IMG/VR virus record: IMGVR_UViG_3300028394_000003
Span: 1 to 63,708 of that record
Source of the DNA: a virus
Strand: one strand, 5' to 3'
DNA length: 63,708 nt
Shown here: positions 6,831 through 40,905 of the stretch, piece by piece
Numbering within the stretch: the stretch's first letter is position 1
How the letters are laid out: the number at the start of each line of letters is the position of its first letter
The notes under the pieces: model-generated
Seen by the model: only the letters and a program-made list of their open reading frames with translations
Told to the model about the DNA's origin: nothing
Databases searched by the model: none
Translations under genes and position numbers: made by a program

Positions 6831-7943
6831 TTATAACTCCGAAGAAAATGCACCGTAAGAAGTGGCGCTATTACTTCCACTCCATAAAGCGCCTGTGCCA
6901 GTAACAAATGTCCCTGCTGTTGAAATTCTTAAAAACATAGTATTGTAAGTAGACCCAACATCCGCAACTGACGTAACGGCATAGGGTGTTGCAGCAACTT
7001 GAACTGCAGTTACAGATGATGTTATCGTTGGTGTGGTTCTCATTGTTACTCTTAGAGGGACATATATATCACATTGTGTTGTACTAAATGCAAATCCATT
7101 TCCAATGATAGGGTAAAGAGGATTTCCACCAAAAGAATTTCCGCCAATTTGCTGGTAGTATCTTTGGCATTTAATTAATTCATTTCCAAAGTCCCTAAAC
7201 TCAAATCCAGTAGCAGAGCTACCTACTTCTAGTTGTACGCCTGTTATGTAGAATGTTGCGCCATTTGTGCCTACTACGCTTACTGCGCTTGTAACAGTAA
7301 AATATTGAGTAGCAGACCATGAACCAGCAGTTCCACTATAAGTTGAACCAGCTCCAAGGCTTAATCTAACCATTAACCCAATACCACTAGTTGTTAGCCA
7401 AGTTGCGGTTGTTGAACCAGCAATAGTAACACTAATTGTCGTCCATGTATTAGCAACGGAAATTGAATAACTAAATGGGTAATTTTGTGTGTTTGCGGAA
7501 TTATTTAATGAACCACCAAATGTTCCTGTAAGGCTTGAATATACTTGAAATGATAGAGTTACAGTTTTGGCATTAGCAGTTCCCCAAGCTAAATCTGCAA
7601 CATTGTACCCTTCAATGTATTGAAAAAACATAAAATAATCACTTGCACCTACTGTATAAGCAGAAGAAGATGTAAAGCCTAAATAGTTTGTATACCCTAC
7701 TGGCGGAGTTACAGAACCAGCATTTTGTTGCCAAGTTCCTTTAGATGATTGTGAAGCCGCATATCCCCATCTATCTACAGTATAAGAATTTATAGCGGTA
7801 CCACTAGCCCCAGCATTACGCTGGTCAATACGCATATCGCCGTTGATGATTCTGTTTTTAAAGACGGTAGCGTTACCAGCACCGAGGCTGACCCCCGTTA
7901 CGCTGCTTTGTATTACGTCTGCGTTGATTGTTCCGTATGCCAT
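6831..7943 (-). CDS. Tail fibre or receptor-binding protein
   Basis: A 370-residue protein. The N-terminus contains KNRIINGDMRIDQRN (about 30-44), a motif frequent at the start of phage tail proteins with carbohydrate-binding beta-sandwiches. The middle is Ser/Thr/Gly-rich with alternating strands, followed by FYITGVQLEVGSSATGFEFRDFGNELIKCQRYYQQ (split here: ITGVQLEVG then LIKCQRYYQQ), a common closing motif of such domains. Together with neighbours it forms a bank of surface-binding proteins. Confidence 0.75.
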   Translation of the reverse strand: MAYGTINADVIQSSVTGVSLGAGNATVFKNRIINGDMRIDQRNAGASGTAINSYTVDRWGYAASQSSKGTWQQNAGSVTPPVGYTNYLGFTSSSAYTVGASDYFMFFQYIEGYNVADLAWGTANAKTVTLSFQVYSSLTGTFGGSLNNSANTQNYPFSYSISVANTWTTISVTIAGSTTATWLTTSGIGLMVRLSLGAGSTYSGTAGSWSATQYFTVTSAVSVVGTNGATFYITGVQLEVGSSATGFEFRDFGNELIKCQRYYQQIGGNSFGGNPLYPIIGNGFAFSTTQCDIYVPLRVTMRTTPTITSSVTAVQVAATPYAVTSVADVGSTYNTMFLRISTAGTFVTGTGALWSGSNSATSYGAFSSEL

Positions 7944-7952
7944 ACTTGTTCC

Positions 7953-8702
7953 TTAGAGAATAACCCAACGGCTGTTCGTTGGGATTGTAACTGTTACTCC
8001 AGTGTTAACCGTTATCGGTCCTACTGACTCGCCGTTATTGCCTACCGTCATCGTGTAGTTCACACTAATAATTTGATTGTTTTCAATAATTGGTCCACCT
8101 ACAATTGTACTAGATCCGCTGCCAATTGTGCCCCATCCGTCGTACACGTAGCTACCAACCACTGTAGCGATGCCGCCCGGGTTAGATAGCATGGTGTAAG
8201 TAAATGTAACGGTGTCTACTACTGTTACAACAAACGTGCCATTATACGCAGCTGGCGTGCAGCCAGACATGACAATTGTATCACCGCTTGTCAAGTTATG
8301 CGGGGTGTTTGTTACAGTTGTCGCCGTGGTGGTGACGTTAGTTAACGAGCCAATTGTAGCGCCGTTAATTGTCTGGTAACCTTCAAAGCCGGGTGTTGTG
8401 GTGTTGTAGCGAATGTCACCTAGCGCTGGCGTTGCTGGCCGTTGTCCGCTTGTTCCCAGCGCAACACGAAGCGCACCGGTTGCGTCAACAATCAGCGTGT
8501 TATTAGCTGCGTCCCATGTCAGGTGGCTGTCTACACCGCCCTCTGCTAAGACCTGAACAACGCCGCTGCTGTCCTTGTAATACAGAACACCGTCAGCGGT
8601 ATTAAGGGCCAACTCACCAGCAACTAAGTTAATTGCTAATGGTGCACTAGCAGCTGTTGTGCTGTGGTACAGCTGAATTGGTGTTCCGCCAACTGCCGCC
8701 AT
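7953..8702 (-). CDS. Tail fibre protein
   Basis: A 249-residue protein starting MAAVGGTPIQLYHS at the ATG of 8702; a longer in-frame start exists but would overlap the upstream gene further. It has a QLYHSTT...AGELALNTADG head found in fibre proteins, the QRPATPALGDIRYNT...EGY module, and a C-terminus (ESVGPITVNTGVTVTIP...RWVIL) that closely resembles the last residues of the large fibre encoded just upstream. The shared end suggests a common capping or trimerisation element. Confidence 0.75.
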   Translation of the reverse strand: MAAVGGTPIQLYHSTTAASAPLAINLVAGELALNTADGVLYYKDSSGVVQVLAEGGVDSHLTWDAANNTLIVDATGALRVALGTSGQRPATPALGDIRYNTTTPGFEGYQTINGATIGSLTNVTTTATTVTNTPHNLTSGDTIVMSGCTPAAYNGTFVVTVVDTVTFTYTMLSNPGGIATVVGSYVYDGWGTIGSGSSTIVGGPIIENNQIISVNYTMTVGNNGESVGPITVNTGVTVTIPTNSRWVIL

Positions 8703-20580: not shown

Positions 20581-20621
20581 CCTAATTACAATAATGCAAA
20601 TAAAGGGCACAATCCGCCCCT
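20581..20621 (-). promoter_or_regulatory. Phage-specific bipartite promoter, copy d
   Basis: Minus strand: GGGCGGAT (from 20619) and GCATTATTGTAATTAGG (from 20597), offset 22. It lies between the TerL stop and the portal start. The spacer contains GCCC, complementary to the GGGC of the -35-like box, so the same DNA can also form a terminator-like hairpin. Confidence 0.7.
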
Positions 20622-20628
20622 ATTGTGC
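20607..20628 (-). terminator. Hairpin at the end of TerL
   Basis: Minus strand GCACAAT and ATTGTGC pair across an 8-base loop and are followed by CCCTTTATTT. It overlaps the TerL stop codon and promoter copy d. T run is short, so termination may be partial or the structure may protect an mRNA end. Confidence 0.45.
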
Positions 20629-22065
20629 ATAAGGATTAGAAAATCGTTTGTTAGAGTCATCATCAGCGTAATCATAGTCTCTTGCTGGCAATGGATCAAG
20701 CTGCAGCCAGCCCGAATCCCTGAGTACCCTTAAGGCTTGGGACAGGGAGTCTACGTAGTCATCATGGCCCCCGGCTTCAGGAAACGAGCACACCTGACGC
20801 AGGAAGCGTTTTGCCCATGAGGCGTAGTCGCTCTTTTGTTCGGTGTCTTCTGGTATGAATACCTTGCCCTTGGATACAAGGGGTGCCACAATGTTAAGCC
20901 GTTGTACCTTGTCTGCTCTTCCAGGGTTGTACCCACGGACAGGAACGCCGGCCCGCTGTAGTTCTTGGATTAAAGATATGCCAGCTGACTTGTCTTCCAT
21001 TAAGATTTGGTCTGCCTTACGGCCCTTACCAAACTCGTTATCTGACCCGTAGACTACTTCCTTAAAATCACTGATAACCTTACGACGCAGCTCGGGATAT
21101 GACAGGTGTTCATCCCATGCGTCTAAAAGAATAACGGATGTGCCAGCGTCTTCTCGTTCAAATATTCCCCACACCGTGCAGGCTGTCGGGTCGTTCATTG
21201 TCTTTTCGCTAGTAGCTGGGTCATAACTGGCGATCACGTACTCAAGAACGGGTGTCGGCTTGTTAGCGGGCCACATCTTAAACTGCTTACGCTTGATGAT
21301 ACCAGTGGCCTCTGGGTCAAGGATCTCGCCGTAGATCTCTTGGCGGCCCATGTCGGTGCCATCATAAGTCTCGAGCTGCTTAAAAAACGTTTCTGATAAG
21401 TTGGCTCGGTTGTCATACGAGCTGGCGTTAACCATGTACACGTCACCACCAATCTTACCCTCAGCTAAGTCTACAATTAATTCTTTTGGCTTTGGTGTGG
21501 TGGTAATAATCTGCTGCACTCGAGAGATCCTGGGATCCTTGAGTCGGAGCGTAAACTGTACTCCGTCGTAGGCTTCATCGAGGTAATCAAACGCACACAG
21601 CTCGTCGAACCAAGCGCCATGGTATTGCTTACCACGATACCGTTCAGGTTCAGAGGCGGGAATGCCTTGAATGATAGAGCCGTTGGTAAGGGTGATCTCG
21701 AATAGAGACTTGTTGTAGTCGCGGATGAGTGACTTGGGGATGATATTGATAAGCCCTGAGTCTCCCTCAAAACAAGTTGCGCGTATATCGTTGGAAGTCG
21801 GGGCTGTGACCAGCCATCTTGTATTGTCATAAAGCCAAGCGCGGATACCAATCCAATGACTGGCAGTGTGCGTCTTACCTGATCCACGACCAGCAAGCAT
21901 AAGGAACGTGTCATACTCATTGTCGTCTGGTTCTTTCTGGTGGGGTAGTGCCTGTAGCGACCACCTGACCTGCCACATAAGGGCCTCGAGCTGCTGGTTA
22001 GGCCAATGCTTACGTGCATCTGCAAACTTCTTTAGTGTAAGTTCTTGTTTAGGTGTTAAAGACAT
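20620..22065 (-). CDS. terL: Terminase large subunit (ATPase and nuclease)
   Basis: A 481-residue DNA-packaging motor. The ATPase has Walker A AGRGSGKT (about 58-65), Walker B YHGAWFDE (148-155, with Asp154 and Glu155) and an ITTTPKP coupling motif (187-193). The RNase H-like nuclease has Asp282 (SYDPATS), Glu357/Asp358 (LMEDKSAG) and the HDDYVDS segment (about 434-440). All key residues are present, so it is uninterrupted and presumably active. Its start overlaps the end of the intein-like gene by ten bases. The small subunit is not adjacent; a candidate is at 38281. Confidence 0.95.
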   Translation of the reverse strand: MSLTPKQELTLKKFADARKHWPNQQLEALMWQVRWSLQALPHQKEPDDNEYDTFLMLAGRGSGKTHTASHWIGIRAWLYDNTRWLVTAPTSNDIRATCFEGDSGLINIIPKSLIRDYNKSLFEITLTNGSIIQGIPASEPERYRGKQYHGAWFDELCAFDYLDEAYDGVQFTLRLKDPRISRVQQIITTTPKPKELIVDLAEGKIGGDVYMVNASSYDNRANLSETFFKQLETYDGTDMGRQEIYGEILDPEATGIIKRKQFKMWPANKPTPVLEYVIASYDPATSEKTMNDPTACTVWGIFEREDAGTSVILLDAWDEHLSYPELRRKVISDFKEVVYGSDNEFGKGRKADQILMEDKSAGISLIQELQRAGVPVRGYNPGRADKVQRLNIVAPLVSKGKVFIPEDTEQKSDYASWAKRFLRQVCSFPEAGGHDDYVDSLSQALRVLRDSGWLQLDPLPARDYDYADDDSNKRFSNPYAQ

Positions 22066-23048
22066 GATATGAAGCCTTCTCCTACGAGAATCGTGTTGTC
22101 TTCCCCAGTGGTTTCTATATAAACACAGGACTGGGGTTGAATGGGGTCTATGCTGCAGACATACCGTCTACTCTGATGCACCTTTATCGGCGGCGAGTTC
22201 TGGTTCTCTATCAGCTTGATGCGTGATTTAAAAAATAACGTGTAATGCTTAAACGTGTTCTCAAAATTTTGTGAGGTTTTTATGCCGAGTGACTCAACTA
22301 AGAACTGAATCTGAGAAATTAAATTTAACTGCTTAGAAGAAAACTGAAAACTGTCTTTCTTTTGTGAGTATACCCTACTCTTAGTACAAAAAATTCCCCT
22401 AAGCAGTTCAATTCGCTGCTCAGGTGAGCCAAGTAGGTAGTTGTTTGATATTTTTGTGGGGATGTTAGGCACAAGCTGTGACTCAATACTTGGACTAACG
22501 CTAAAATCTCTGGATCCTGTCTTTTGTTTCCTGCCAAATTTTGTTTTGTAGCCAAAGTCTTTGAACTGTTGCTCAACATAGTCCTGCATCCCACGCGCCG
22601 CCGACAGTTTGCCGTTGGTTTTTCTGGCAAAGAACCAGAACCCCATGATGAATGGCGGGATTGGTAGTACTTGGTGGGGTAGTTCCAGGGGTTGGGTAGT
22701 CGGAACGGAGTAGACGAGGCGGTTTCTTTTGCTTTTAAGCGGCAAAGAAAGTAGATCTTGGATATTAGTAGGCTTAAGTGGTCTCCTAAACGCCCTAGTG
22801 CCCTTGTATGAGTTAAGCCTGTTGCGATACTTTTGGTTTTCCAATGGAAGTTTAAGCGCACCATCGCCTTGGATGGTAAGCCAATCGCTAAAAGTAATCT
22901 TGTAGCACTCAGTTGCCTGATATTTTTGAACTAATTTGACACGAACAATCTTGCCGTTCCTATCGAATACATAGTCACCCTCAACCAAACTCCCAGCACG
23001 CTTCCAGTAATCAAGCGTTAGTACTTTTTCTGTTGCTAATATCGCCAT
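22056..23048 (-). CDS. Free-standing, degenerate Hint/LAGLIDADG (intein-like) protein
   Basis: A 330-residue protein that matches an intein with an internal homing endonuclease. Residues 8-35 (KVLTLDYWKRAGSLVEGDYVF) and 48-64 follow the N-terminal Hint blocks; 304-330 (QSCVYIETTGEDNTILVGEG then FISCL) follow the C-terminal blocks. In between are two LAGLIDADG-like helices: PFIMGFWFFAR (132-142) and ELLRGIFCTKS (214-224), each followed by the usual SLGIK-type elements. There is no Cys/Ser at position 1, no His-Asn before the final Cys, and both acidic nuclease positions (GDG, DTDG) are replaced by FAR and CTKS. It should neither splice nor cut, yet the frame is intact and overlaps terL. Family assignment is by pattern. 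Confidence 0.75.
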   Translation of the reverse strand: MAILATEKVLTLDYWKRAGSLVEGDYVFDRNGKIVRVKLVQKYQATECYKITFSDWLTIQGDGALKLPLENQKYRNRLNSYKGTRAFRRPLKPTNIQDLLSLPLKSKRNRLVYSVPTTQPLELPHQVLPIPPFIMGFWFFARKTNGKLSAARGMQDYVEQQFKDFGYKTKFGRKQKTGSRDFSVSPSIESQLVPNIPTKISNNYLLGSPEQRIELLRGIFCTKSRVYSQKKDSFQFSSKQLNLISQIQFLVESLGIKTSQNFENTFKHYTLFFKSRIKLIENQNSPPIKVHQSRRYVCSIDPIQPQSCVYIETTGEDNTILVGEGFISCL

Positions 23049-23319
23049 AAAAATTATTTAAGACCCATCGGTCCAGCCAACGCCCTAGCGGCGCCCTTAT
23101 GTTTGATTGTATTGAATACGGCAGCTTTTGTATTTCCAAAGCATCCGAAGACACCTTTAAACGAAACTGGATGTATTTAGCTGTTTCGTTGTTTAAAATA
23201 TCTGCCGGTACGTTTACCACCTCAAAGTTGTTAAGGTCACACACTAATACTTGGAATCCCTTGAACTCACCAACGGGACTTTCCAACGCACCTTTGATTT
23301 GGTAGACATAGTCATTCAT
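23011..23319 (-). CDS. Unknown protein upstream of the intein-like gene
   Basis: A 102-residue protein from the ATG at 23319 (MNDYVYQIKGALE), preferred over a longer start because promoter copy e ends at this codon. It is alpha/beta with a C-terminal IRAPLGRWLDRWV segment. It overlaps the next gene's start by 38 bases. First in the packaging transcript; a small-terminase role was considered but the sequence gives no support. Confidence 0.65.
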   Translation of the reverse strand: MNDYVYQIKGALESPVGEFKGFQVLVCDLNNFEVVNVPADILNNETAKYIQFRLKVSSDALEIQKLPYSIQSNIRAPLGRWLDRWVLNNFYGDISNRKSTNA

Positions 23320-23357
23320 ACTTACATTAATGCAAACAATCGTTGTTTTCCTTCCAA
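23317..23357 (-). promoter_or_regulatory. Phage-specific bipartite promoter, copy e
   Basis: Minus strand: GGAAGGAAAA (from 23355, a two-base variant of GGGCGGAAAA) and GCATTAATGTAAGTATG (from 23333), offset 22. The ATG at 23319 follows the box by 14 bases, as in copy c, again implying a leaderless transcript. It drives the packaging genes leftward. Confidence 0.68.
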
Positions 23358-23376
23358 TAATATAAATAAATGCCAA

Positions 23377-24249: not shown

Positions 24250-24372
24250 CTCTATATGGGATGTGCAGTGGCTAATCCACTCAGTAGTAGAAGGACTCAA
24301 ACCCAACCGAGATAAATAAGGGGGAGCCGGCAGAACCGGTGCTGTTATCCAACACAGCGTATGACGGACACA

Positions 24373-24541
24373 GTAGCGCAGTAGGCTACTGGATCACCAA
24401 GTAGGCAAGCAGGAAACGGGGTAAGCCCCGAAACGGGTGTCACGGTAGTATGCGAGTCAGCATCCAAACAAGCAAACCGAATAGTCTTGGCCAAGTGTGT
24501 GGACTAGCATATCCACTTGATCCAGTAGCCTACTGCGCTAC
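24373..24541 (+). ncRNA. Structured leader with a 24-base perfect inverted repeat
   Basis: Bases 24373-24396 and 24518-24541 are exact reverse complements, so the early transcript can close a 24-bp stem around about 120 bases. The enclosed part has further hairpins (GGGG-taag-CCCC near 24419; GTGGA...TCCAC near 24498-24516). Each arm is also self-complementary (CAGTAG-g-CTACTG), so local and long-range pairings compete. It resembles no riboswitch I know; an antitermination or translation-control RNA is possible. Confidence 0.55.
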
Positions 24542-24616
24542 AAGATAGTAATGCTCATAGCTACTTGTTACCAGGTAGCTAGAGGCAGTACTAACCAACC
24601 ACCAAGGAGATACACC

Positions 24617-24847
24617 ATGACCACATTAACATTTAAAAACCTCAACACAATCCTCGAAGTATTGCAGGCCCAGCGTCATGCTCAGGCCAAGACAACACAC
24701 TTCCACGATGGTGTAGTTAAAGAGGCGTTAAGCGGTAATAAAGAGAAGCTGGACTTCTTAGTAGAGCAACAAAGCAAAAACTACGTGCGCAAAAGCGAGC
24801 TGGACTATGCGTATTTTGCAGTTAAGGAATTAGTAGACGCATTCTAA
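24617..24847 (+). CDS. Early small protein 1, unknown
   Basis: A 76-residue, mostly helical, charged protein (MTTLTFKNLNTILEVLQAQ start). The ATG at 24617 is chosen because AGGAG and ACACCATG precede it, the same cassette used by the next four genes. First gene of the early operon. Its stop is three bases before ribozyme 1. No family recognised. Confidence 0.7.
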   Translation: MTTLTFKNLNTILEVLQAQRHAQAKTTHFHDGVVKEALSGNKEKLDFLVEQQSKNYVRKSELDYAYFAVKELVDAF

Positions 24848-24850
24848 ACA

Positions 24851-24905
24851 GGTCGAAACCGCATGGACGTGCGGTCTGAGCGTTAGGCGCTCACTGATGA
24901 TGACC
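24851..24905 (+). ncRNA. Hammerhead ribozyme motif 1 (type II order)
   Basis: The conserved core is complete: GGTC-GAAA, a stem III of six pairs (ACCGCA / TGCGGT, loop TGGACG), the GTC cleavage triplet (cut expected between 24876 and 24877), a stem I of six perfect pairs (TGAGCG / CGCTCA) and CTGATGA. GGTC and GACC form an open stem II. It starts three bases after the stop of gene 1 and ends 20 bases before gene 2. Stems differ from the other copies by compensating changes. One extra U lies between CTGATGA and stem II in all copies. Confidence 0.85.
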
Positions 24906-24924
24906 AACCAATAGGAGATACACC

Positions 24925-25041
24925 ATGATCTATTTCAATTCTAAACAAGAAGTATCAGAGTTCTTGACCAACTTGCGTTCCGCAGGTATTCGTTGCGCTG
25001 TTACTCAGTGCAATGGACGTTACGTATTACAGATACGTTAA
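24925..25041 (+). CDS. Early small protein 2, unknown (38 aa)
   Basis: A 38-residue protein: MIYFNSKQEVSEFL at the start, NGRYVLQIR at the end. It is preceded by AATAGGAGATACACC, the shared ribosome-binding cassette, and lies between ribozymes 1 and 2. Alpha/beta pattern, one small domain at most. No family recognised. Confidence 0.65.
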   Translation: MIYFNSKQEVSEFLTNLRSAGIRCAVTQCNGRYVLQIR

Positions 25042-25049
25042 GTAAGACA

Positions 25050-25102
25050 GGTCGAAACAGCCTCACGGCTGTCTGCACGTTAAGCGTGTACTGATGATGA
25101 CC
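25050..25102 (+). ncRNA. Hammerhead ribozyme motif 2 (type II order)
   Basis: GGTC-GAAA; stem III ACAGCC / GGCTGT with loop TCAC; GTC with the cut expected between 25073 and 25074; stem I TGCACG / CGTGTA (one G-U pair) with loop TTAAG; CTGATGA; GACC. Begins eight bases after the stop of gene 2. Confidence 0.85.
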
Positions 25103-25120
25103 AACCAAAGGAGAACCACC

Positions 25121-25342
25121 ATGATCACGACAGGCAAAACAGAATACGACGTAGGGCTGAGCTGGAAAGCATACGAGCATCTCGGTAGCAAAGGCAAGCT
25201 GGCCCTTAAGCGGGAACATAACTTTAAGGAGCGCACGTTCAAAACAAAAAATGAGGCCGAGCAGTTTGCAGCGGCTGAACGCGAACGAACTGGGCTGGAG
25301 CTGCGCGTAGGTGAGTGCACTCCAATCTACGGCATTTTGTAG
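25121..25342 (+). CDS. Early small protein 3, unknown
   Basis: A 73-residue protein starting MITTGKTEYDVG at the ATG after AAAGGAGAACCACC. Its FKTKNEAEQFAAAE segment resembles FKTRAEAQAHFEE of the gene at 26533, so these may be distant paralogues. Lies between ribozymes 2 and 3. Confidence 0.7.
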   Translation: MITTGKTEYDVGLSWKAYEHLGSKGKLALKREHNFKERTFKTKNEAEQFAAAERERTGLELRVGECTPIYGIL

Positions 25343-25346
25343 TAAA

Positions 25347-25399
25347 GGTCGAAACAGCCGCCAGGCTGTCTACACGTTAAGCGTGTACTGATGATGACC
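25347..25399 (+). ncRNA. Hammerhead ribozyme motif 3 (type II order)
   Basis: GGTC-GAAA; stem III ACAGCC / GGCTGT with loop GCCA; GTC with the cut expected between 25370 and 25371; stem I TACACG / CGTGTA with loop TTAAG; CTGATGA; GACC. Four bases after the stop of gene 3. Confidence 0.85.
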
Positions 25400-25418
25400 A
25401 ACCAATAGGAGAACCACC

Positions 25419-25556
25419 ATGATTACAATACAAGAGCTATGCACCCTGCTACCCACGCCCGTGTGGCGTGTGCAGGGTAGAGTAAGCTGGCAGGAATATG
25501 TAGCAATGAGCAAATGGCGTGCTAATGAGGGCGCACAATGGAAAGCAACATTTTAA
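25419..25556 (+). CDS. Early small protein 4, unknown (45 aa)
   Basis: A 45-residue protein (MITIQELCTLLPTPVWR start; EGAQWKATF end) behind the shared AATAGGAGAACCACC cassette. The stop codon TAA directly abuts ribozyme 4. Trp-rich for its size. No family recognised. Confidence 0.65.
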   Translation: MITIQELCTLLPTPVWRVQGRVSWQEYVAMSKWRANEGAQWKATF

Positions 25557-25609
25557 GGTCGAAACAGCCTCACGGCTGTCTCCACGTAAGGCGTGGACTG
25601 ATGATGACC
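25557..25609 (+). ncRNA. Hammerhead ribozyme motif 4 (type II order)
   Basis: GGTC-GAAA; stem III ACAGCC / GGCTGT with loop TCAC; GTC with the cut expected between 25580 and 25581; stem I TCCACG / CGTGGA with loop TAAGG; CTGATGA; GACC. It begins at the first base after the stop codon of gene 4. Confidence 0.85.
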
Positions 25610-25628
25610 AACCAATAGGAGATACACC

Positions 25629-25883
25629 ATGATCAAACTTAAATCAATTCGCGTGCCCCAATTTAAAAAGGGCCAGAGCGAGTGGCACGTAGTCAACCGC
25701 AGTGATTACCAGTTGGTAGGCTTTATTTGCTTCTACGGCTCTGACAACGACTACCATTACGTGGCCTATGTAAAGAACGACGAAGAGTCAAGCGACCACC
25801 TGTTAGGCCGGTCACTGAGCCAATCAGGGGCATTATCCTTGATCCGCAATTATTACAAGGCTAGGGAGGCTGTATGTTTATAG
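25629..25883 (+). CDS. Early small protein 5, unknown
   Basis: An 84-residue alpha/beta protein (SEWHVVNRSDYQLVGFICF; a YKAREAVCL end) after ribozyme 4 and the shared AATAGGAGATACACC cassette. It is the last gene of the ribozyme-separated series; its end overlaps the next gene by ten bases. Confidence 0.72.
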   Translation: MIKLKSIRVPQFKKGQSEWHVVNRSDYQLVGFICFYGSDNDYHYVAYVKNDEESSDHLLGRSLSQSGALSLIRNYYKAREAVCL

Positions 25884-28021: not shown

Positions 28022-28591
28022 GTGGCTGACAATGACATAAAGACGGACTACCTGCAGTCACTTTTTGGCATTGAGCCACTAACCATGAAAGAAGAGCACG
28101 CACTCGGTGCTCGCATAGCCAAGGGTGACAGCCTTGCGCTAGATAAACTTGTAACCCACAACTTACGCTTTGTGCCACACGTGGTCTGTAAGACTACGTA
28201 CTGGCAGCACGGCAAGATGCCGCTGGAGGACCTGCTCGCCATTGGTAATGAGCAGCTGCTCATCGCGGCCAAGCGCTGGAAGCCTATGAAGCATATTAGG
28301 TTCTCGGCGTTTGCCAGGTCATTCATACTGCGTGGACTACAGCGCGAGCTGGACAACACGGCAAACATCATCAGATTACCCATCAACATCATGGAAGAAC
28401 TAAAGCGCATGAATTATAACGAGCGCATGCTACTACAGGAACTGGGGCGTAAGCCACTGGTATCTGAGATAGCAAAGACGATGGACGTAAGAGAGTCAAG
28501 GATTCACCAGCTCAAAGGTTTTATAGCCAGAGAGCCAGTGAGTTTAGACAACATTGAGAATGACAAGTTTTTTGAGGAAAATGATGATTAA
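28022..28591 (+). CDS. Phage sigma factor lacking region 4
   Basis: A 189-residue protein beginning with GTG. Regions in order: 1.2 (about 20-50, LTMKEEHALGARIAKGD then THNLRF), 2 (about 50-120, with MPLEDLLAIGNEQLLIAAKRW and the 2.3/2.4 segment FSAFARSFILRGLQREL), and 3 (about 135-175, ELGRKPLVSEIAKTMDV and IAREPVSLDN). It ends just after region 3, so the -35-binding region 4 is missing, as in T4 gp55. The usual Trp pair of region 2.3 is replaced. It should bind host RNA polymerase and direct it to phage promoters; the bipartite element described here is the natural target. Confidence 0.82.
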   Translation: MADNDIKTDYLQSLFGIEPLTMKEEHALGARIAKGDSLALDKLVTHNLRFVPHVVCKTTYWQHGKMPLEDLLAIGNEQLLIAAKRWKPMKHIRFSAFARSFILRGLQRELDNTANIIRLPINIMEELKRMNYNERMLLQELGRKPLVSEIAKTMDVRESRIHQLKGFIAREPVSLDNIENDKFFEENDD

Positions 28592-40310: not shown

Positions 40311-40326
40311 TTATTTAAGGGTAGAC

Positions 40327-40353
40327 GAACAGGCCCCTACTGAAGTCCTGTTC
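40327..40353 (+). other. Hairpin before the DUF2815 gene
   Basis: GAACAGG and CCTGTTC pair around a 13-base loop. No T tract follows, so it is more likely an mRNA-stability or translational element for the DUF2815 gene starting at 40378. Confidence 0.45.
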
Positions 40354-40377
40354 TACAGTTAAAAAGGTAATATCATC

Positions 40378-40905
40378 ATGGCAGCTAAATCAGTAAGAAC
40401 CAAACTAGTAACAAACAAAGTTCGTTTGTCTTTCGTTAACGTATTTGAACCAGCCGAGACATTAAACGGCGTACTTAAATATTCGACAATGGTATTAATT
40501 CCAAAGTCTGATAAAGAAGGTGTTGCCCGTTTTAATAAGGCATTTGAAGATACTAAGCAAGCCAATGCAGCATTCTTTGGTGGCTCAGTACCTAAGCTAT
40601 TAAAAGGTGGCTTACGTGATGGTGATGCAGAAAAAGAAGATCCAGAATTCGTGGGCCATTATTTCTTTAATGCTTACGCAAATATTGATCGTAAACCTGG
40701 CGTTGTAGACGCTGAAGTAAACCCAATCCTTGATAAGAATGAAGTGTACAGTGGTTGTTATGGTCGCGTGTCAATTGACTTGTTTCCGTATGACACAGCA
40801 GGCGCCCGTGGTATTGCTGTTGGCTTAAACAACGTTCAGAAGTTAGAAGACGGAGAACGTTTAGGTGGAGCTAGTACATCAGCAGCAACAGATTTTGCAG
40901 CATAA
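40378..40905 (+). CDS. DUF2815 single-stranded DNA-binding-like protein
   Basis: A 175-residue protein with the DUF2815 beginning (NKVRLSFVNVFEPAETLNG then KYSTMVLIPKSDKE) and an IDLFPYDTAGARGIAVGLNN segment, consistent with an OB-like fold. DUF2815 proteins are associated with DUF2800 nucleases and family A polymerases, and are thought to bind single-stranded DNA. The end is low-complexity (GGASTSAATDFAA) rather than acidic. Confidence 0.85.
   Translation: MAAKSVRTKLVTNKVRLSFVNVFEPAETLNGVLKYSTMVLIPKSDKEGVARFNKAFEDTKQANAAFFGGSVPKLLKGGLRDGDAEKEDPEFVGHYFFNAYANIDRKPGVVDAEVNPILDKNEVYSGCYGRVSIDLFPYDTAGARGIAVGLNNVQKLEDGERLGGASTSAATDFAA

Follow-up and report, generated by a model that had tools for sequence, protein, structure and literature searches.

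Four predicted type II hammerhead ribozymes separate five small genes in the window analysed here, a stretch of viral DNA of 63,708 nt. From sequence comparison and structure models we consider it likely that these elements are cleaving ribozymes which act as intercistronic punctuation. Similar elements occur in many unrelated phages, and we lean towards the view that they constitute a widespread and distinct type II subclass, characterized by an optional U between A9 and G10.1, a UNANG loop I, a 4-bp stem II with an invariant A on its 5′ side, and the lack of a pseudoknot. Such a subclass would serve as standard operon punctuation: lying next to the stop codon and ahead of the ribosome site, it would give rise to end-protected single-gene mRNAs and travel with exchangeable small early genes.

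The five co-directional small genes stand at the head of the rightward gene block on a tailed-phage contig of 63.7 kb. This phage possesses genes for terminase, portal, major head protein, its own sigma factor, primase/helicase, exonuclease and a single-stranded DNA-binding protein, and it also encodes ribonucleotide reductase and DNA polymerase. Judged from their position only, the five small genes would be early genes. No convincing family assignment was obtained for the five small proteins. The product of gene 5 (25629-25880) yielded a borderline Pfam match to ubiquitin carboxyl-terminal hydrolase over 38 residues (23.8 versus a cut-off of 23.9), which is probably due to chance. The sigma-70-like factor of the phage is encoded at 28022-28591, shortly past the small-gene block; hence, promoters there may differ from the host type. 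The positions of the features discussed here are given in Table 1.

Table 1. Predicted hammerhead elements, small genes and associated features within the window
Feature	Position	Strand	Remarks
Leader hairpin "module D", conserved internal loops	24547-24592	+	Directly 5′ of gene 1; type III hammerhead instead in L032
Shared start cassette AGGAGATACACCATG	24605-24619; also 24913, 25109 (variant), 25407 (variant), 25617	+	
Gene 1, 76 aa	24617-24847	+	Leader hairpin in front, no hammerhead
Hammerhead 1, type II (GGTC-GAAA-stem III-GTC-stem I TGAGCG/CGCTCA-CTGATGA-T-GACC)	24851-24905	+	Predicted cut after 24876; 66.7 bits with model R1; fold
Gene 2, 38 aa	24925-25041	+	
Hammerhead 2, type II	25050-25102	+	Predicted cut after 25073; RF02276 32.0 bits; model R1; fold
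Gene 3, 73 aa	25121-25342	+	L032 orthologue at 7960-8181
Hammerhead 3, type II	25347-25399	+	Predicted cut after 25370; RF02276 30.4 bits; model R1; fold
Gene 4, 45 aa	25419-25556	+	
Hammerhead 4, type II	25557-25609	+	Predicted cut after 25580; RF02276 30.8 bits; model R1; fold
Gene 5, 84 aa	25629-25883	+	L032 orthologue at 8456-8710
Extra U between A9 and G10.1	24901 (copy 1); 25098, 25395, 25605 (copies 2-4)	+	

All four elements are 53-55 nt in length and follow the order GGUC-GAAA-stem III-GUC-stem I-CUGAUGA-U-GACC. The hammerhead core (CUGANGA, GAAA, A15.1-U16.1, H17) is intact in 4/4 copies, each with the GGUC/GACC stem II, and full hammerheads thus stand where a first-pass annotation of the sequence had placed them. 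Their architecture is the type II permutation, in which loops close stems I and III and stem II opens to the flanks. The minimum-free-energy fold computed with the flanks is a type II hammerhead in all four cases and leaves the ribosome site outside the ribozyme. The cut positions that had been proposed (Table 1) agree with the hammerhead rule, and the compensatory changes described for stems I and III were confirmed. No further hammerhead of type I, II or III was found elsewhere in the window when both strands were searched with relaxed stems.

The distances to the neighboring genes are very regular. Copies 1 to 4 start 3, 8, 4 and 0 nt past the upstream stop codon, in line with the 0-8 nt reported previously, and end 19, 18, 19 and 19 nt before the next ATG. 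The first-pass annotation had put the elements 15-20 bases before an AGGAG cassette; this spacing is correct for the start codon (approximately 18-19 nt) and incorrect for AGGAG itself, which starts 6-7 nt past each element.

A pattern scan with core and stems yielded at least 253 distinct similar elements in at least 149 phage loci belonging to at least 82 nucleotide-unrelated groups, counts that rest on loci collected with a fixed GGUC/GACC stem II and that under-sample other stem II types. Five permuted-core controls gave 0-1 matches each over 1.8 Mb, compared to the at least 253 with the true core. When pairing was not required in the search, both stems I and III (at least 4 bp) formed in 60 of 62 U-insert matches and, among the matches listed, in 126 of 134 without the insert, while fewer than 1% of shuffled gap sequences formed both stems. 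Covariation was evident as well: 9 of 16 pairs had changed on both sides among 31 U-insert sequences (score 0.485 versus 0.123 shuffled) and 12 of 16 among 48 no-insert sequences from the matches listed (0.719 versus 0.127 shuffled). The alignments are ungapped, and slid structures collapse in this test. The 100% paired cells in the covariation tables partly reflect the selection of elements, which required each stem to have 5 bp or more; the stem test without pairing requirement is less biased. The stem covariation in related phages that had been named as a check is therefore present, with three helices kept by compensatory change, and together with the cores and folds it supports the identification as type II hammerheads.

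Across many phages, the position of the elements between a stop codon and a ribosome site departs strongly from random. Among the matches listed, 86% of the elements start at most 20 nt past an upstream stop codon (median 2 nt; random 15%), 63% have a Shine-Dalgarno sequence plus start codon at most 30 nt downstream (random 6%), and for 70% both the stop and the Shine-Dalgarno-start lie within 60 nt (random 4.9%; antisense 0.4%). If only one element per nucleotide-related group is considered (82 groups, among the matches listed), the respective values are 83%, 56% and 64%. This enrichment over random and antisense positions links the motif with the sense strand as well as with gene junctions.

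The four window copies share a deviation from the consensus, in which stem II directly follows A9, by one U inserted at this point (Table 1). This base marks a variant rather than an exclusion from the hammerheads, as the CChMVd ribozyme, an accepted active member, deviates there too. The U-insert pattern was found in 56 stretches in viral contigs. The corresponding A/C/G-insert pattern gave 20 stretches (9 distinct matches by script), and 0 of these 9 form the stems; on this ground, a sloppy or decayed core was rejected as an explanation. One A-insert element with another stem II exists in L054. Copies with and without the insert share genomes, and both kinds are present in 11 of 82 unrelated groups (among the matches listed). 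Hammerheads of types III and I can carry the U insert as well (L036, 1894-1959; L048, 3707-3772; L112, 1027-1093; L174, 9006-9066). These four lie just 5′ of a likely ribosome site. A strict coupling of the insert to N7=U was tried and rejected, since 12 of the 15 distinct matches combining the insert with an N7 other than U are real.

For the CChMVd (+) viroid hammerhead, PMC3705267, citing De la Pena and Flores (2001), gives a 3-4 fold faster cleavage if the extra A10 is replaced by U and describes replacement by C or G as very harmful. The resemblance to the phage elements consists in one extra nucleotide between A9 and G10.1 with U as the best tolerated base, whereas the viroid provides another context and naturally has A; the phage base is U, in type II and also in types I and III. 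Because the comparative and the biochemical base preferences agree, the inserted U is probably not a defect but a harmless or useful addition. The earlier suspicion that the extra U could weaken activity thus finds no backing, with U as the sole insert base among the stem-forming pattern matches and as a favorable base in the viroid (PMC3705267).

With regard to known families, the Rfam search that had been suggested for the window named RF02276 Hammerhead_II for three of the four copies, all below the gathering score: copies 2-4 reached 30.4-32.0 bits (E 5e-4 to 1e-3 in a 2.1-kb search), the gathering threshold is 37 bits, and for copy 1, which is recognized by model R1 (Table 1), no Rfam match was reported. 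The permutation, the core and stems I and III are like those of RF02276, to which the elements match weakly. They differ by a 4-bp stem II instead of 2 bp, by the extra U after A9, and by the conserved A 5′ of stem II and the UNANG loop I where RF02276 has a pseudoknot. Among the matches listed, loop I reads U-N-A-N-G, with U in 224/225, A in 185/225 and G in 198/225 cases. No search pattern specified the nucleotide immediately 5′ of stem II, and it is A in 220/220 of the listed matches that combine a stem II of 4 bp with a stem I of 17 nt; in the same set, the nucleotide immediately 3′ of stem II is A in 85% and U in none. The loop I-tail pseudoknot of the published type II consensus was rejected for these elements, as loop I pairs with the 3′ tail no better than with shuffled tails (mean best helix 2.74 versus 2.71 +/- 0.04). 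The invariant A together with the UNANG loop I suggests a kept tertiary contact, and loop I may make a non-Watson-Crick contact with the open end of stem II. A subclass below the Rfam threshold tends to be missed in genome annotation. Nine copies were observed in L040, where Rfam-like hammerheads with a 2-bp stem II and 4-bp U-insert hammerheads are mixed in one phage; longer arrays are also found in L010 (six copies) and in contig IMGVR_UViG_3300032897_000001 (L016, L023, L042).

A covariance model built from the U-insert set was run on 27 sources of the window's phage group. It gave 62 copies at 43 bits or more, all 62 with an intact core and no decayed copy among them; the weaker matches were only the type III hammerhead of the related phage L032 and one chance match. 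Next to the 55 distinct elements of this group lie 30 gene families on the downstream side and 26 on the upstream side, combined in 52 different pairings. One gene family is associated with a ribozyme in 5 of 12 cases, a comparison in which a few of the counts without a ribozyme are duplicates of removed identical copies. L032 and the window have 88-94% identity over most shared stretches, with the flanking genes in common and the genes between them different. In front of the L032 orthologue of gene 3 stands a hammerhead whose stem I differs from that in the window, with compensation; at the gene 5 orthologue there is none, which was either lost or never present. In the L032 leader, a type III hammerhead at 7460-7518 (Rfam Hammerhead_3, E 4e-5) replaces the last leader hairpin, which is conserved in other relatives, directly 5′ of the ribosome site of gene 1, suggesting that hairpin and hammerhead can do the same job. 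From these comparisons, ribozymes turn over junction by junction while those present stay intact, and no single copy is essential, since not every junction has one.

Hammerhead cleavage leaves a 2′,3′-cyclic phosphate and a 5′-OH, and a 5′-OH is a poor substrate for decay that senses 5′-monophosphates. If the elements act as punctuation, each of them would fold during transcription of the operon and cleave itself 3′ of the C in GUC (C17). The new 3′ end of the upstream gene would consist of its stop codon, GGUCGAAA and the stem III hairpin, with the cyclic phosphate expected from the hammerhead mechanism, and the new 5′ end of the downstream gene would comprise the 5′-OH, the stem I hairpin, the rest of the core and the gene's own ribosome site. 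Only the permutation of type II caps both new ends with hairpins; with both ends closed in this way, each gene would become a small, end-protected and independently translated single-gene mRNA, and the benefit may lie in stability or in the tuning of expression. The presence of a type III hammerhead in the leader of the same operon in L032 and the cleavage of similar arrays in vitro and in E. coli (PMC3088659) argue for punctuation. Counted against it are the junctions that have no element and the stem II of only 4 bp with its extra U.

Definition of the 5′ leader, translation gating and recombination joints are the main alternatives; each could hold alongside punctuation, and the likelihoods attached to them here are not shares of one whole. 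The ribozymes could chiefly serve to give the downstream gene a defined 5′ leader, with a 5′-OH and the stem I hairpin, as RiboJ does, with any upstream effect as a by-product. In E. coli, RiboJ increases transcript approximately 2-fold and protein by a factor of 2-10 (PMC6206723), and a role of this kind would fit the start cassette at a near-fixed 18-19 nt in the window (median 22 nt overall, among the matches listed) as well as the L032 leader hammerhead, which precedes gene 1 without an upstream gene to separate. However, the tightest spacing is that to the upstream stop codon (median 2 nt, among the matches listed), a constraint not expected if only the 5′ end mattered, and we regard leader definition as an unlikely main role. 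The window elements start 0-8 nt past the stop codon, inside the footprint of a terminating ribosome. Such a ribosome could cover GGUCGAAA and block folding, and cleavage would then report upstream translation or another signal. A translation-gated or regulated switch of this kind appears quite improbable, as neither an aptamer-like insert nor an alternative fold was seen and the minimum-free-energy folds are those of a plain ribozyme.

We judge it very improbable that the elements are mainly recombination joints, that is, repeats for shuffling small genes as cassettes with catalysis being incidental. Although the 52 pairings of gene families and the different inner genes between common flanking genes in L032 and the window point in this direction, the stems diverge with compensation, which is poor for homologous recombination, and the invariant part is the catalytic core. 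Finally, the extra core base and the scores under the Rfam gathering threshold might indicate inactive RNA structures, either decayed hammerheads or plain hairpins. This we consider barely credible in view of the lack of decayed copies, the U-specific insert and the intact-core type III and type I forms in similar places.

Punctuation by hammerheads is not a new proposal, contrary to the first-pass annotation, which had considered an intercistronic array as novel. Perreault et al. (2011) found type II hammerheads to be common in bacteria, with clusters flanking prophage genes, and proposed processing into single-gene mRNAs (PMC3088659). Their arrays from Agrobacterium tumefaciens, Azorhizobium caulinodans and Clostridium scindens included three prophage arrays with cleavage in vitro, and the A. 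tumefaciens array was also cleaved in E. coli (PMC3088659). As in those clusters, several hammerheads, type II included, flank individual genes or short blocks here. Different from them are the regular stop-ribozyme-Shine-Dalgarno-start layout over at least 82 unrelated groups, the optional U insert, the lack of the loop I-tail pseudoknot and a phage group for which no isolated close relative was found. The closest characterised phages, MW202545 (terminase 52%) and Caulobacter phage GB2A (43%), contain no type II motif in the scan and no Rfam hammerhead, and nothing in the annotated phage collection matched the array region in a DNA search. Matches to the consensus element were mainly in unrelated sequence from Klebsiella phages; Bcep176, which has a known phage hammerhead, was matched as well.

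In haloviruses HF1/HF2, a hammerhead is located 13 nt before the start codon of an early gene, and an mRNA 5′ end was mapped near the cut; unlike the array described here, it is a single copy with insertions near C3 and is weak at normal magnesium (PMC3088659). The synthetic insulator RiboJ is likewise a self-cleaving ribozyme, as predicted for the phage elements, 5′ of a ribosome site that yields a defined leader, but it is engineered, for single use and outside natural operon junctions (PMC6206723). Beyond the work of 2011, our analysis adds the scale, the stop-ribozyme-Shine-Dalgarno-start rule, the U-insert subclass under the Rfam threshold and natural pairs with and without a ribozyme; later work on phage arrays may exist. 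The role of phage hammerheads has been a standing question since 2011. Many natural arrays of fixed geometry and the with/without pairs, such as gene 5 in the window versus L032, make the idea of mRNA processing directly testable, to which a natural core variant with a base preference matching earlier biochemistry contributes. If active, these elements would provide synthetic ribozyme insulators with a precedent in nature, and compact parts for operon construction could be drawn from them.

The leader upstream of gene 1 (24255-24600, with counterparts in L008-L172) resembles a chain of exchangeable structured-RNA modules and has a folding z-score of -5.5. Its first hairpin (GUGCAGUGGCUAAUCCACU) and its last one (AGUAAUGCUCA-stem-GAGGCAGUACU) are constant, and the modules between them vary. 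In the last hairpin the internal loops are conserved, and 7 pairs covary among 18 sequences. No Rfam family matched the leader modules; the leader could be an antitermination or other control RNA. A middle module of approximately 173 nt (24364-24541) has ends that form a 24-bp perfect inverted repeat (24373-24396 and 24518-24541). It is present in the window, L034, L057 and L103 and missing from L009, L025, L047, L012 and L058.

Two further observations concern other parts of the phage genome. The large terminase gene (20620-23376, - strand) is seemingly split by an intein or homing-endonuclease-like insert, with a weak LAGLIDADG_3 match at 22056-23048 below the cut-off. At 40318-40380, a DUF2815 RNA (Rfam, 76.9 bits) is located directly 5′ of the gene for a Gp2.5-like single-strand-binding protein (40378).
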